Assembly (NCBI GenBank): GCA_008330645.1
Contig: VLTN01000002.1
Coordinates: 1 to 64,000 of the forward strand
Direction of reading: 5' to 3'
From: Cafeteria roenbergensis
Taxonomy: Eukaryota; Sar; Bigyra; Bicosoecida; Cafeteriaceae
DNA: 64,000 nucleotides
In this document: positions 24,698 through 41,645 of the stretch, in pieces
Layout: every line of letters starts with the position of its first letter
Numbering within the stretch: the first letter of the stretch is position 1
Made by a program: the position numbers and the translations under genes
The notes under the pieces: generated by a model
Seen by the model: only the letters and a program-made list of their open reading frames with translations
Databases searched by the model: none
What the model was told of the DNA's origin: nothing

Positions 24698-25109
24698 GCC
24701 GGCACCCGGGAAGGCGGGTCACGCCGCTGGTTCAGGGTAGAGGTGGGCGTGGTCGGCCTCTGGCAGCCGCCAGGCTCGCGAGTGCGACCAAGGTTCAACA
24801 AGGCCTCGACGTCAGCAGACCCGCTCAGCGAGTCTCGAACTGCTGCCAGATTCGATTGGCAGCGCCGCGCCCGCGCGCTGTGCCGAGGCTTTCGCGGCGC
24901 GCATGGCGCCGGGGCGCTTGTGCGACGCCGCGAACCATCGGGCTGGCGTGCGCGGGCGCCGCACGGGGCGCGCGCGGCGGAGCCAGTTGCATCAGACGCC
25001 GGCGCAAAACCTGGCTCGAGCGTCCGCTGCACCTCACCGGCAGCCGAGCGGAAGCAAAGCGGCCGCGAGCTCTGCCCGCTCTGCCGCGGCGGGCTTGTCA
25101 GCCGACGAA
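24698..25109. promoter_or_regulatory. Upstream region of AAAP transporter, ending at transposon insertion
   Basis: 412 bp from the transporter start to the transposon edge. Before insertion the AAAP and La starts would have been about 506 bp apart, so the element split a shared divergent promoter region. Positions 25101-25109 are the left target-site duplicate. Confidence 0.4.
25101..25109. repeat. Left target-site duplication (9 bp)
   Basis: GCCGACGAA, identical to 30182-30190 on the other side of the element. Confidence 0.93.
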
Positions 25110-25456
25110 GGTAGAGCGTACAGGGGGCCTAAGCCCCCCCCCTTATTGACATCATTTTCCCTTCCGCCCACTCCGGCAACCACACCACCGCCAAAACCAC
25201 CGCTTTTTCGCAAAAGCCGGCGCAAATGCTACTAAACCTTCATGTGTGACGCGGGCAGCGCCCAGGACCACGCCGCCGAGGCGTGAGGCGGCGGCAAAGT
25301 CGGCGCGAATTACGCAGTCGAACGCCCAGCCTCCCCCACCCTCTCCAGACCTTCGGTGTCACCCCTCCCCCCCGCAGATCCATCGTCAGGGCATGGAATG
25401 ACTCCCTGGCGCGGGAATCCGGCCCAATGGAGCCAGGGTAGCGCCAAGCGATCGCC
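25110..25456 (+). repeat. Left terminal inverted repeat
   Basis: 347 bp, inverted copy at 29835-30181 with three mismatches. It contains a nine-C run after the first 24 bases and an internal hairpin-prone stretch around 25265-25295 (GCCGCCGAGGCG/GAGGCGGCGGC). Confidence 0.95.
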
Positions 25457-25923
25457 CGGGAGAAAATGTGGTCACCGTTGAAGACCTTCCTCGCACATTT
25501 CTCTGCCATGAAAGAGCTTTCGCGACCACGGGGCTGTGTGCGACTTAATCAACTGTTAAGCGTCGCTGCGGTACTGTTGGGGATGAGGAAGGTGGGCTGC
25601 GGCGGTACCGAGGAGCATTTTTGCAGTGGCCGTTGATCCTCAGCCAGCTCCAGCCGCCCGGCTGTCGCCCACAGGGCCTAATTGCCAAAGCACCAGATGG
25701 ATCCGTTGTAGCTTCAAGTGATCTCGACGCTTGGGCCGCTGGCTGTTCGAAAGACCTCATTGCAAGGGCACGTCTGCTGTGAAGCCTGACATCCTGGCCG
25801 CAAATGAGCCACCAGCGTCGGCAGAGCAACGTAACTGCAAGCCGGCTGTGAAGTGTGAGGTGCGGGGGCACTTGAGTCGTGCGGAGACGCTGGAATCGGA
25901 CTCGTGAGGCTTCTGCGTAGCGA

Positions 25924-28902
25924 TCAATGGGGAGAATGGCCTCTGCGCATTCCGCGATGCGGTCCCAAGGAAGGCTCGCAGCTCGGGAGAATGCGTTGAA
26001 GAGTGATGGGTACGACGGCGCTGTCACTCACGACGCCAGCCGTGTGTTCGTCGATGGAATTGCAGTCAATGGCGTTCGAAATGACGCCAGCCATGAGGAA
26101 GCTGCTGGAATGGTCGTCACCCGCGTCAACGTCGCTGAAGTGGACGTCTACGTTGCTCGGAAGGACGTCAGCCGCGTCTACGTTGCTCTGGAGGACGTCA
26201 GCCGCGTCTACGTTGCTCGGGAGCACGTCAGCCGCGTCTACGTTGCTCGGGAGGACGTCAGCCGCGTCTACGTTGCTCTGGAGGACGTCAGCCGCGTCTA
26301 CGTTGCTCTGGAGGACGTCAGCCGCATCTACGTTGCTCGGGAGCACGTCAGCCGCATCTACGTTGCTCTGGAGGACGTCAGCCGCGTCTACGTTGCTCTG
26401 GAGGACGTCAGCCGCGTCGACGTCGCTGTAGTGGACGTCAGCCGCATCTACGTTGCTCTGGAGGACGTCAGCCGCGTCGACGTCGCTGTAGTGGACGTCT
26501 ACGTTGCTCGGGAGCACGTCAGCCGCGCCGACGTTGCTCGGGAGGACGTCAACCGCGTCGACGTCGCTGTAGTGGACGTCAGCCGCGTCTACGTTGCTCT
26601 GGAGGACGTCAGCCGCGTCGACGTCGCTGTAGTGGACGTCTACGTTGCTCGGGAGCACGTCAGCCGCGCCGACGTTGCTCGGGAGGACGTCAACCGCGTC
26701 GACGTCGCTGTAGTGGACGTCAGCCGCGTCTACATTGTCTACGTTGCTCTGGAGGACGTCAGCCGCGTCGACGTTGCTCGGGAGGACGTCAGCCGCGTCG
26801 ACGTCGCTGTAGTGGACGTCTACGTTGCTCTGGAGGACGTCAGCCGCGTCGACGTTGCTCGGGAGGACGTCAGCCGCGTCGACGTCGCTGTAGTGGACGT
26901 CTACGTTGCTCGGGAGCACGTCAGCCGCGCCGACGTTGCTCGGGAGGACGTCAGCCGCGTCGACGTCGCTGTAGTGGACGTCTACGTTGCTCGGGAGCAC
27001 GTCAGCCGCGCCGACGTTGCTCGGGAGGACGTCAACCGCGTCGACGTCGCTGTAGTGGACGTCTACGTTGCTCGGGAGCACGTCAGCCGCGCCGACGTTG
27101 CTCGGGAGGACGTCAACCGCGTCGACGTCGCTGTAGTGGACGTCAACCGCGTCTACGTTGCTCTGGAGGACGTCAGCCGCGTCTACGTTGCTCGGGAGGA
27201 CGTCAGCCGCGTCGACGTCGCTGTAGTGGACGTCTACGTTGCTCTGGAGGACGTCAGCCGCGTCTACGTTGCTCGGGAGCACGTCAGCCGCATCTACGTT
27301 GCTCGGGAGCACGTCAGCCGTGTCTACGTTGCTCTGGAGGACGTCAGCCGCGTCGACGTCGCTGTAGTGGACGTCAGCCGCGTCTACGTTGCTCGGGAGC
27401 ACGTCAGCCGCGCCGACGTTGCTCGGGAGGACGTCAGCCGCGTCGACGTCGCTGTAGTGGACGTCTACGTTGCTCGGGAGCACGTCAGCCGCGCCGACGT
27501 TGCTCGGGAGGACGTCAACCGCGTCGACGTCGCTGTAGTGGACGTCAGCCGCGTCTACGTTGCTCTGGAGGACGTCAGCCGCGTCTACGTTGCTCTGGAG
27601 GACGTCAGCCGCGTCTACGTTGCTCGGGAGCACGTCAGCCGCATCTACGTTGCTCGGGAGCACGTCAGCCGCGTCTACGTTGCTCGGGAGCACGTCAGCC
27701 GCATCTACGTTGCTCTGGAGGACGTCAGCCGCGTCTACATTGTCTACGTTGCTCGGGAGGACGTCAGCCGCGTCTACGTTGCTCGGGAGGACGTCAGCCG
27801 CGTCTACGTTGCTCTGGAGGACGTCAGCCGCGTCTACGTTGCTCGGGAGGACGTCAGCCGCGTCTACGTTGCTCGGGAGGACGTCAGCCGCGTCTACGTT
27901 GCTCTGGAGGACGTCAGCCGCGTCTACGTTGCTCTGGAGGATGTCAGCCGCGTCTACGTCGCTGTAGTGGACGTCAGCCGCGTCGACGTCGCTGTAGTGG
28001 ACGTCAGCCGCATCTACGTCGCTGTAGTGGACGTCAGCCGTGTCTACGTTGCTCTGGAGGATGTCAGCCGCGTCTACATTGTCTACGTTGCTCGGGAGGA
28101 CGTCAGCCGCGTCTACGTTGCTCGGGAGGACGTCAGCCGCGTCTACGTTGCTCGGGAGCACGTCAGCCGCATCTACGTTGCTCTGGAGGACGTCAGCCGC
28201 GTCTACATTGTCTACGTTGCTCGGGAGGACGTCAGCCGCGTCTACGTTGCTCGGGAGGACGTCAGCCGCGTCTACGTTGCTCTGGAGGACGTCAGCCGCG
28301 TCTACGTTGCTCGGGAGGACGTCAGCCGCGTCTACGTTGCTCGGGAGGACGTCAGCCGCGTCTACGTTGCTCTGGAGGACGTCAGCCGCGTCTACGTCGC
28401 TGTAGTGGACGTCAGCCGCGTCGACGTCGCTGTAGTGGACGTCAACCGCGTCTACGTTGCTCTGGAGGACGTCAGCCGCGTCTACGTTGCTCGGGAGGAC
28501 GTCAGCCGCGTCTACGTTGCTCTGGAGGACGTCAGCCGCGTCTACGTCGCTGTAGTGGACGTCAGCCGCGTCGACGTCGCTGTAGTGGACGTCAACCGCG
28601 TCTACGTTGCTCTGGAGGACGTCAGCCGTGTCTACGTTGCTTGGGAGGACGTCAGCCGCGTCTACGTTGCTCTGGAAGACGTTAGCCGCATCCACGGTGG
28701 TGGAATGGACCTCAACCGCGTTCGGATGACTGCCGATCGTCTCGATGCTCTGGGAAATGGCTTCTTGACTGTGGCCTTTTTGGCAGTGGATGCAGCCTGC
28801 GCTCGCTTTGGTCCTGTGCTCAAGTCTTCCAGTGGACATTGCCTTGATGATTGTGTGCTCTGCTGGGCTCATGGGCCGGCCTTGCGCTTGGGTGTGACGC
28901 AT
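25924..28902 (-). CDS. Repeat-dominated open frame inside the transposon (uncertain)
   Basis: 992 codons, ATG at 28902. About 70 unique residues at the N-terminus include CIHCQKGH, a possible Cys/His cluster. Then comes a run of 10-residue units (VDAADVLQSN, VDAADVLPSN, VDAADVHYSD), followed by a unique tail of about 70 residues. The product would be extremely acidic, regular and low-complexity. An equally long frame (996 codons, 25927-28917) is open on the plus strand with units SRVYVALEDV; because the DNA unit is 30 bp, a stop-free unit stays open in every copy, so length is not evidence of coding. Third-position GC does not separate the strands. I recognise no domain. Confidence 0.25.
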   Translation of the reverse strand: MRHTQAQGRPMSPAEHTIIKAMSTGRLEHRTKASAGCIHCQKGHSQEAISQSIETIGSHPNAVEVHSTTVDAANVFQSNVDAADVLPSNVDTADVLQSNVDAVDVHYSDVDAADVHYSDVDAADVLQSNVDAADVLPSNVDAADVLQSNVDAVDVHYSDVDAADVHYSDVDAADVLQSNVDAADVLPSNVDAADVLPSNVDAADVLQSNVDAADVLPSNVDAADVLPSNVDNVDAADVLQSNVDAADVLPSNVDAADVLPSNVDAADVLPSNVDNVDAADILQSNVDTADVHYSDVDAADVHYSDVDAADVHYSDVDAADILQSNVDAADVLQSNVDAADVLPSNVDAADVLPSNVDAADVLQSNVDAADVLPSNVDAADVLPSNVDNVDAADVLQSNVDAADVLPSNVDAADVLPSNVDAADVLPSNVDAADVLQSNVDAADVLQSNVDAADVHYSDVDAVDVLPSNVGAADVLPSNVDVHYSDVDAADVLPSNVGAADVLPSNVDAADVHYSDVDAADVLQSNVDTADVLPSNVDAADVLPSNVDAADVLQSNVDVHYSDVDAADVLPSNVDAADVLQSNVDAVDVHYSDVDAVDVLPSNVGAADVLPSNVDVHYSDVDAVDVLPSNVGAADVLPSNVDVHYSDVDAADVLPSNVGAADVLPSNVDVHYSDVDAADVLPSNVDAADVLQSNVDVHYSDVDAADVLPSNVDAADVLQSNVDNVDAADVHYSDVDAVDVLPSNVGAADVLPSNVDVHYSDVDAADVLQSNVDAADVHYSDVDAVDVLPSNVGAADVLPSNVDVHYSDVDAADVLQSNVDAADVHYSDVDAADVLQSNVDAADVLQSNVDAADVLPSNVDAADVLQSNVDAADVLQSNVDAADVLPSNVDAADVLPSNVDAADVLQSNVDAADVLPSNVDVHFSDVDAGDDHSSSFLMAGVISNAIDCNSIDEHTAGVVSDSAVVPITLQRILPSCEPSLGPHRGMRRGHSPH
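26121..28729. repeat. 30-bp minisatellite, about 87 units, with 81-bp higher-order repeats
   Basis: Basic unit GTCAGCCGCGTCTACGTTGC followed by a variable ten bases. Four main variants end CTCTGGAGGAC, CTCGGGAGGAC, CTCGGGAGCAC or, in a 21-bp short form, GCTGTAGTGGAC. A higher-order block of 81 bp (30+30+21) repeats head to tail, for example starting near 26891, 26972 and 27053. A short insertion containing TACATTGTC recurs near 26730, 27740, 28075 and 28205. All units are direct and abut, with no unique spacers. Each contains the palindrome GACGTC and two ACGT cores. Confidence 0.97.
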
Positions 28903-28913
28903 AGCAAACCCAG

Positions 28914-29408
28914 CTAGCCAAATGTGTGATGCCCACTGTGCAGAGCCGTCAAATTTGCGCGACCAAGCAGCTCGAACTTCGTCAAGTGCTCTGCTGCCTC
29001 ATGCGGTTCGCAACATTGTCTCCGGCACGCACCATGCCATTTGGCAGATGTGGCTGCGCCAGATTGGTAATCTCCCTTGGAAGCACTGGACAGGTCAACT
29101 CCTGCACCGGTACAAAGAGCGGCATCCTCTTGCGATGCTCCCCATCGCAGTGCCTCGCGGGGCTTAATGTCCCTGCGCGCGAGGCAGCGGTACGTAACAG
29201 AGGCCCCGGTTGCCTTGCGACTCAAACCCGCCCCTGTCGCGGCAACGAGAGTTTGTACCTGCTTCCCAGCATCCACCAGCGTAGTCCCATTGACGACGGC
29301 GAAGTGCCCAAGCAGCAAGTCCTCTGGCTCAGCTGCTCTGGTCAGCCAATCAGCCCTCCTTGGCAACGCCTGCCGAATGGATGAGGCGTTATACCATTCG
29401 GACACCAC
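28914..29408 (-). CDS. Unique open frame in the transposon interior (uncertain)
   Basis: 164 codons from ATG 29408; the frame stays open upstream to about 29505. The peptide is not low-complexity and looks protein-like: RAAEPEDLLLGHFAVVNG, then YRCLARRDIKPREALRWG, which faintly recalls the 'RDIKxGEELTxDY' strand of SET domains. That resemblance is weak and the catalytic Tyr is missing. It ends 12 bp before the ATG of the repeat-dominated frame and in another frame, so the two could be exons of one gene, but I find no convincing splice pair. A further open frame of 74 codons (29491-29715, minus) lies upstream. Confidence 0.25.
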   Translation of the reverse strand: MVSEWYNASSIRQALPRRADWLTRAAEPEDLLLGHFAVVNGTTLVDAGKQVQTLVAATGAGLSRKATGASVTYRCLARRDIKPREALRWGASQEDAALCTGAGVDLSSASKGDYQSGAATSAKWHGACRRQCCEPHEAAEHLTKFELLGRANLTALHSGHHTFG

Positions 29409-29834
29409 TTTCTGGGCAACTCGGTGACCACAACTACCGGATGCGCCTCTGGTAGCCAGGAGAAAAGGCTCTGCCGACGTCAGCAGGCAGTCACGACAAG
29501 CTCAGCGGGCTCTCCGCCGCTCTCAGCACTCCCAGGGCCAACGACTCCACGGCATGGGGCCGCAAATGCTCTGAAATGTTCTGAAGCAAGCAAACCGTGA
29601 CGGAGGTGGTCCTTGTTGCAGGGGGAGCATCTCCAGTGCTGGCGGGAGCGGCGAAAGCAACGGTCGATTCGTTTCGGGCAGCAAACGCCGCTACAGCCCA
29701 CATAGCCTCGCTCAACCAAGAGTCATCTCTTCCTGGGGAGTCTGAAAGACGTACATGCTGGTCCTTTGGTCAGATGGCTGCATTCCGGCCAAGAACTTGT
29801 GAGCCACGTGCGGCCTGTTGATGGCAACGGCCAC

Positions 29835-30181
29835 GGCGATCGCTTGGCGCTACCCTGGCTCCATTGGGCCAGATTCCCGCGCCAGGGAGTCATTCCATGC
29901 CCTGACGATGGATCTGCGGGGGGGAGGGGTGACACCGAAGGTGTGGAGAGGGTGGGGGAGGCTGGGCGTTTGACTGCGTAATTCGCGCCGACTTTGCCGC
30001 CGCCTCACGCCTCGGCGGCGTGGTCCTGGGCGCTGCCCGCGTCACACATGAAGGTTTAGTAGCATTTGCGCCGGCTTTTGCGAAAAAGCGGTGGTTTTGG
30101 CGGTGGTGTGGTTGCCGGAGTGGGCGGAAGGGAAAATGATGTCAATAAGGGGGGGGGCTTAGGCCCCCTGTACGCTCTACC
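29835..30181 (-). repeat. Right terminal inverted repeat
   Basis: Inverted copy of 25110-25456. Its outer end abuts the right target duplicate; its inner end stops at the same GCGATCGCC motif as the left copy. Confidence 0.95.
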
Positions 30182-30190
30182 GCCGACGAA
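30182..30190. repeat. Right target-site duplication (9 bp)
   Basis: GCCGACGAA, identical to 25101-25109. Confidence 0.93.
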
Positions 30191-41475: not shown

Positions 41476-41645
41476 CGGCTCGGCTCGGCTCGGCTCGGCT
41501 CGGCTCGGCTCGGCTCGGCTCGGCTCGGCTCGGCTCGGCTCGGCTCGGCTCGGCTCGGCTCGGCTCGGCTCGGCTCGGCTCGGCTCGGCTCGGCTCGGCT
41601 CGGCTCGGCTCGGCTCGGCTCGGCTCGGCTCGGCTCGGCTCGGCT
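41476..41645. repeat. (CGGCT)34 pentanucleotide array
   Basis: 34 uninterrupted copies of CGGCT, 170 bp, starting 46 bp after the GatB stop. No imperfect copy is seen inside. Frames through it are open on both strands (for example SRAEP repeats) only because the unit lacks stops. Confidence 0.97.

Follow-up and report, generated by a model that had tools for sequence, protein, structure and literature searches.

The window analysed here, positions 1 to 64,000 of Cafeteria roenbergensis contig VLTN01000002.1 (64,000 nucleotides), contains an inserted element at 25110-30181 that is bounded by long terminal inverted repeats (TIRs), the arms of which are 99.1% identical, and flanked by a duplicated target site (Table 1). 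Re-reading 25101-30190 directly confirmed the initial annotation in its description of a 5.07-kb element with 347-bp TIRs, three mismatches between them, and a perfect 9-bp duplication. Two details had gone unnoticed: a tandem array makes up about half of the element, and its last stretch (29066-30181) consists of the 5' remnant of a transposase gene together with the right TIR. The element's G+C content is 62%, against 72% in its flanks and 69.8% in the window as a whole. A La-domain gene follows, its start codon 103 bp downstream of the element's right end. Its exon at 30285-30398 matches positions 1-30 of the Pfam La profile (E 5.6e-11), with positions 31-57 weakly matched in a frame further down.

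Elsewhere in the window, the contig start (1-826) consists of 2.6 copies of a 313-bp tandem repeat at 99% identity, perhaps a subtelomeric satellite, and a perfect (CGGCT)34 microsatellite occupies 41476-41645. A search for light-harvesting proteins found none, consistent with a non-photosynthetic host.

Table 1. Parts of the window element, by position in the window, and copies of the family in the genome, by length.
Feature	Position or length	Strand	Remark
Left target-site duplication GCCGACGAA	25101-25109
Left TIR, 347 bp	25110-25456	+	Same termini at eight insertions
Left inner region, probably non-coding	25457-26128		83% identity to 8-kb copy C131; codon periodicity absent
Tandem array, 30-bp units of two 15-bp halves	26129-28682		One ACGT core per 15 bp
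Post-array segment	28683-29036		Common to window copy and 8-kb copies; codon periodicity absent
Internal-deletion junction	29037-29065		~29 bp aligning to neither side; ~4.3 kb of 8-kb copy missing
Transposase-gene 5' remnant and right TIR	29066-30181	-	93% identity to 8-kb copy C43; broken frame
Right TIR, 347 bp	29835-30181	-	3 mismatches to left TIR
Right target-site duplication GCCGACGAA	30182-30190
Copy C2 (window)	5072 bp		9-bp duplication
Copy C6	4891 bp		9-bp duplication
Copy C13	4582 bp		8-bp duplication
Copy C90	~4931 bp		Contig end; two readable ends absent
Copy C32	at least 1507 bp		Contig end; two readable ends absent
Copy C131	7777 bp		9-bp duplication
Copy C43	8025 bp		9-bp duplication
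Copy C120	8027 bp		8-bp duplication

Copies in the genome and the origin of the window element

Searching the genome (36,303,456 bases in 167 contigs) with the left TIR recovered at least eight insertions that share its ends. Five belong to a class about 5 kb long and three measure 7.8-8.0 kb; all copy counts are lower bounds. The incomplete copy C32 was assigned to the 5-kb class on account of its deletion, which is the one typical of that class, and of its 97-99% inner identity to the other members. C13 is without ~126 bp of one TIR. Perfect duplications flank all six of the eight insertions that can be read at both ends. The prediction of the initial annotation is largely borne out: it had foreseen TIR copies with 9-bp duplications, which describes four of these six, the other two having 8 bp; it had also foreseen a longer copy bearing a transposase, and the three long copies all carry a transposase gene. 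Among 20 hand-picked frames flanking the other seven insertions, Pfam matches occurred at two (a kinase/response regulator at C6 and a SpoU methylase at C32).

The window structure is a genuine element. The same termini at eight genomic places, together with the duplications at every readable insertion, rule out a chance inverted repeat. Some copies do lie at the ends of contigs, and length differences of a single base are frequent, as might be expected if assembly had generated the structure; but the eight places have different flanks, six have duplications of their own, and the sequence to the right of the window copy occurs only once in the genome, so that an assembly artefact or a fortuitous repeat is vanishingly improbable.

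The element appears to have moved recently, judging from the near-identity of copies at different sites. Comparison of the window copy with C13 over 650 and 778 bases of their inner parts revealed no mismatch; the remaining pairs within the 5-kb class are 96.6-99.7% identical, the lowest values involving C90, which lies at a contig end, and the inner parts of the 8-kb class agree at 98.6-100%. Recent movement had originally been deduced from the three TIR mismatches. That conclusion survives, on the strength of the copy-to-copy comparison, but its basis does not: both arms of an element travel together, and the mismatch between them is therefore not a clock. Between the two classes, identity is 81-84% in the left inner part, 90-91% in the right part (coding in the partner) and ~95-97% in the TIRs, or 88-89% for the right TIR of C90 at its contig end. 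The TIRs are thus the best-kept part, which fits recognition by one enzyme. A weak 155-bp TIR relic, 75% identical, on another contig (L017, C22:318653-318807) suggests an older relative of the family.

Aligned with the 8-kb copy C43, the window copy matches on both sides of a gap at ~2609-6910 of C43, a loss of ~4.3 kb. Its interior aligns throughout to the longer partner except for the ~29 bp at the junction, although the array does so at only 65-76%. By this alignment, the window copy is an internal-deletion derivative of an 8-kb relative that retains the 5' remnant of the transposase gene. No captured host gene, the feature of Pack-MULEs, was seen inside it. The earlier remark that no transposase is recognisable is accurate for database searches of the window, but the right fifth of the element derives from the partner's transposase gene. 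The autonomous partner that the initial annotation took to be implied has a counterpart in the 8-kb copies with their transposase gene, although the reading frame is broken in every one of them as assembled.

We therefore consider it very probable that the window element is a non-autonomous MULE-type cut-and-paste DNA transposon, derived by deletion from the 8-kb form and mobilised in trans. An internal deletion in a transposase-encoding 8-kb relative would have produced the 5-kb element, which could then be moved by the transposase of the 8-kb copies, the TIRs of which are ~95-97% identical to its own. The transposase would bind the long TIRs, excise the element and insert it at a staggered cut of 8-9 bp, giving rise to the duplications. 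We infer that a complete, active transposase is made and mobilises the window copy. Because a 5-kb and an 8-kb form occur within one genome, trans-mobilisation is directly testable.

The transposase gene and its superfamily

The transposase can be read from a 1380-aa open frame in C131 (L014:2945-7087, minus strand), although approximately its N-terminal 62 residues do not share the frame of the other copies. The right TIR of both C43 and C131 contains, 318 nt from the tip, an ATG that belongs to the C43 transposase frame, and a gene running from this ATG to the stop would span ~1,670 codons, frame breaks ignored. The whole gene is uninterrupted in none of the three 8-kb copies as assembled. 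These copies differ from one another at 41 places over 5.8 kb, and 30 of the differences are indels, nearly all of one base; with mostly single-base indels, many of the frame breaks resemble long-read errors. Between the window copy and C43, changes in the right part show a modest unevenness over the codon positions (26, 20, 15). We also considered frames on the left side as a mudrB-like second gene and rejected them, as changes there are even over the codon positions (35, 38, 32).

Read by eye, the C131 frame contains, in order, VDDTF (D364), LTVSDE (D456), HCSWH (C997, H1000), W1082 and E1100, the last being the sole Glu in residues 1061-1160. After E1100 comes a SWIM-like CxC...CxH pattern, CSC...CCRH (C1223-S-C1225 ... 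C1238-R-H1240). Each of the three 8-kb copies has these motifs, spread over more than one frame in C43 and C120. In Muta1, alanine mutants of D214, D283 and E419 abolish transposition, H307A lowers it by 99.5% and W401F by 79%, according to the available part of PMC5225508. Spacings in our protein and in Muta1 are, respectively, 92 and 69 residues from D1 to D2, 544 and 24 from D2 to H, 82 and 94 from H to W, and 18 and 18 from W to E (W401-E419 in Muta1), so that ~520 extra residues precede CxxH relative to Muta1. Inside this extra domain, the segment at L014:4478-5290 (minus strand) has a GTxD motif in common with the C18 protein described below, and a low-confidence secondary structure.

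Profile searches found little. Pfam, at E up to 10, returned just a 13-residue VWF-like stretch below the cut-off, with an E of 0.93 when the whole frame was scanned and of 0.002 when a piece was, and NCBIfam only an unrelated kinase-type entry at 0.076. PDB held no match for the transposase or its pieces. PF10551 matched neither the protein nor its pieces, nor anything in the genome at E ≤ 1, a scan that a divergent member could escape. The Pfam SWIM and PHD profiles likewise gave no match, these scans being blind also to the SWIM-like pattern seen by eye. An AlphaFold model of the transposase core (1161 aa, from two sequences) was unusable at a mean pLDDT of 29.7; a model of the insertion segment (271 aa) reached 41.4 and had no Foldseek match at E ≤ 0.001, the best being 0.21. 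Given this low pLDDT and the lack of a Foldseek match, we claim no fold. A search of viral contigs with the single protein found no relatives, and a two-sequence alignment produced 23 pattern matches, none confirmed.

Membership of the Mutator superfamily is likely, though not proven, on the basis of anatomy and motif order, and the 8-kb copies probably encode a MULE transposase enlarged by a sizeable additional domain. The duplications (9, 9, 9, 9, 8 and 8 bp, with two of the eight insertions unreadable at contig ends) fall within the MULE range of 8-11 bp, and TIRs of 347 bp are of the long kind that characterises MULEs. The Mutator assignment made at the outset thus agrees with TIR length, duplications and the motif order read by eye, but no profile match backs it.

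An element of another DDE superfamily, hAT-, P- or Kolobok-like, with a large insertion in its transposase could also lack a MULE profile match. Large insertions between D2 and E are found in hAT and P transposases, and hAT elements make 8-bp target duplications, as at two of our six insertions, and have short TIRs. CxxH and W, moreover, are common to Mutator-type and hAT transposases in the available text of PMC5225508. Four of the six duplications are nevertheless 9 bp, and the 347-bp TIRs are far above the usual hAT length. The W-E distance is that of Muta1, and SWIM fingers are common in MULEs as described in the accessible sections of PMC6446971. We regard a non-Mutator origin as quite unlikely. 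A large insertion between D2 and CxxH would bear on the relationship of the Mutator, hAT and P enzymes.

The ACGT array and the C18 protein

The array of the window copy holds 172 ACGT cores in ~2.55 kb; 157 of the 171 spacings are exactly 15 bp, and six slots have been lost. ACGT density is 6.7 per 100 bp in the array, compared with 0.29 for the window excluding the element. Arrays of C13, C6 and C90 have 144-159 cores and those of the three 8-kb copies 60-81, while C32 ends before its array; in the 8-kb copies the array lies past the transposase stop and before the TIR. The pattern ACGT-N11-ACGT-N11-ACGT has 583 matches genome-wide, 579 of them in these elements, and a reversed control pattern has 46. 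The constancy of the core was checked with anchors on other letters of the unit, and the check is hence not circular. With the anchor CAGCCGC, constancy in C2 and C13 is 0.94-1.00 for the letters of the core and drops to as little as 0.50 for those between cores; with TTGCTC, the first letter of the core farther upstream is 0.80/0.78 constant, variable spacing shifting the units. In C131 and C43 the check barely discriminates, as most letters are constant there.

Most likely, in our view, the array is a non-coding platform for a sequence-specific DNA-binding protein, either the transposase or a host factor. It is possible instead that the array is coding, a decapeptide repeat VDAxDVLPSx on the transposase strand in which ACGT would persist solely for the Asp-Val or Asn-Val that it specifies. 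The frame is stop-free through the array in all four copies tested (C2, C13, C131, C43), the ACGT spacings are all multiples of 3 in C2 and C13 and all but one in C131 and C43, and, by eye, the two classes have 8 of the 10 residues in common. Yet the phase is broken in C6, C90 and C120 by spacings such as 14 and 16, which may be sequencing errors, and changes from one unit to the next are not clearly concentrated at the wobble position (70, 64 and 43 by phase). Variable positions number 4, 4 and 4 by phase in C2 and 7, 6 and 3 in C43. GAC outnumbers GAT by 177:9 in the C2 array but only by 43:16 in the transposase, a bias that repeat homogenisation could also explain, and the segments flanking the array have no codon periodicity. 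The codon tests lean against a coding array, which we consider unlikely.

Searching the genome with the transposase revealed a sole diverged relative, a 1471-aa open frame at C18:91116-95531 (L018:4117-8532, minus strand). The C18 protein is collinear with transposase residues 139-1274 over 1164 columns at 25% identity (E 2e-50), and a 513-aa piece of it matches only itself and the three 8-kb copies. In the alignment D1 is kept, D2 changes from VSDEA to VAGKR, CxxH becomes CWWG, and the segment around E1100 is gapped. G+C by codon position is 0.71, 0.61 and 0.70 in C18 and 0.64, 0.55 and 0.61 in the transposase; third-position values in four conserved host segments are 0.71-0.87.

C18 is probably a domesticated, catalytically dead transposase: it is a single-copy gene with an intact frame, it is TIR-less, and its catalytic residues have been lost. 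It might instead be a long-dead copy from a related transposon, still open by chance, since decay too would remove catalytic residues and selection is not measurable from one copy. Against such an origin, its 1471 stop-free codons exceed anything in 100 Markov surrogates of the locus, where the longest open frame reached 868 aa and the mean was 528, and the collinear match to the transposase extends over more than a thousand columns. The 9.9-kb locus has 61 inverted-repeat pairs, the longest of 39 nt at 72%; the 25 longest include no TIR-like repeat flanking the gene. The C18 stop lies 131 bp from the stop of a carbon-nitrogen-hydrolase gene. A dead copy thus seems less likely than domestication, while keeping an appreciable share of the probability. 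If domestication holds, C18 is a protist case of a transposase domesticated alongside a living relative.

A bolder proposal, improbable as it stands, combines these observations: an unseen deep Mutator-type lineage in a bicosoecid, distinguished by the ~520-residue domain between D2 and CxxH, might have its ACGT array read by a dedicated DNA-binding protein, with the catalytically dead C18 retained as a regulator, perhaps one that binds this DNA too and governs the live elements or genes of the host.

Relation to known systems

No such Mutator-type element in Cafeteria is named in the titles and abstract openings listed by our searches of the open literature. The available portions of PMC8547959, PMC6972860 and PMC6431247 do not mention one; the topics treated there in the host genome papers (PMC8547959, PMC6972860) are assembly, virophages and Ngaro retrotransposons. 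'MULE', 'Mutator' and 'transposase' are all absent from the main text of the 2021 host genome paper. A DNA transposon of seemingly recent mobility whose enzyme escapes Pfam and NCBIfam suggests that annotation can miss whole families in such protists.

Like MuDR/Mu and Muta1, the family described here has long TIRs, 8-9 bp duplications, and coding and non-coding members with common TIRs, as well as the D-D-CxxH-W-E order and a SWIM-like finger pattern in the C-terminal part, both read by eye. It differs in its ~520 extra residues between D2 and CxxH and in lacking a profile match. Aedes MULE transposases, in the portion of PMC5225508 available, have 416-554 aa, against ~1,670 codons here. Tm1 of root-knot nematodes likewise makes 9-bp duplications and has transposase-coding and non-coding classes, but its TIRs are Foldback-type composites and its transposase has 496 aa (PMC3169594, partial text).

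The arrangement of the array recalls two other groups. Rehavkus (9-bp duplications) and aphid Phantom (8-10 bp) both have long TIRs and a minisatellite after the transposase gene, which in Rehavkus lies before the 3' TIR (PMC6446971, in part), and our 8-kb copies have a repeat array in the same place. Rehavkus differs in its PHD finger and animal hosts, where we see a SWIM-like pattern and a protist host. VANDAL elements of Arabidopsis carry non-coding tandem repeats with a short specific motif that differs between families and is targeted by VANC (PMC10398659, available text). The array described here, probably non-coding, similarly repeats a fixed short motif, ACGT every 15 bp; in contrast to VANDAL, no VANC-like second gene was recognised, the left part of the element being without codon periodicity.

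Domestication of MULE transposases into chromosomal genes is known (PMC6446971, in the sections available). C18 probably represents such a chromosomal gene, as do FAR1/FHY3 and MUSTANG, but would be an independent case in a bicosoecid, with D2, H and E lost.
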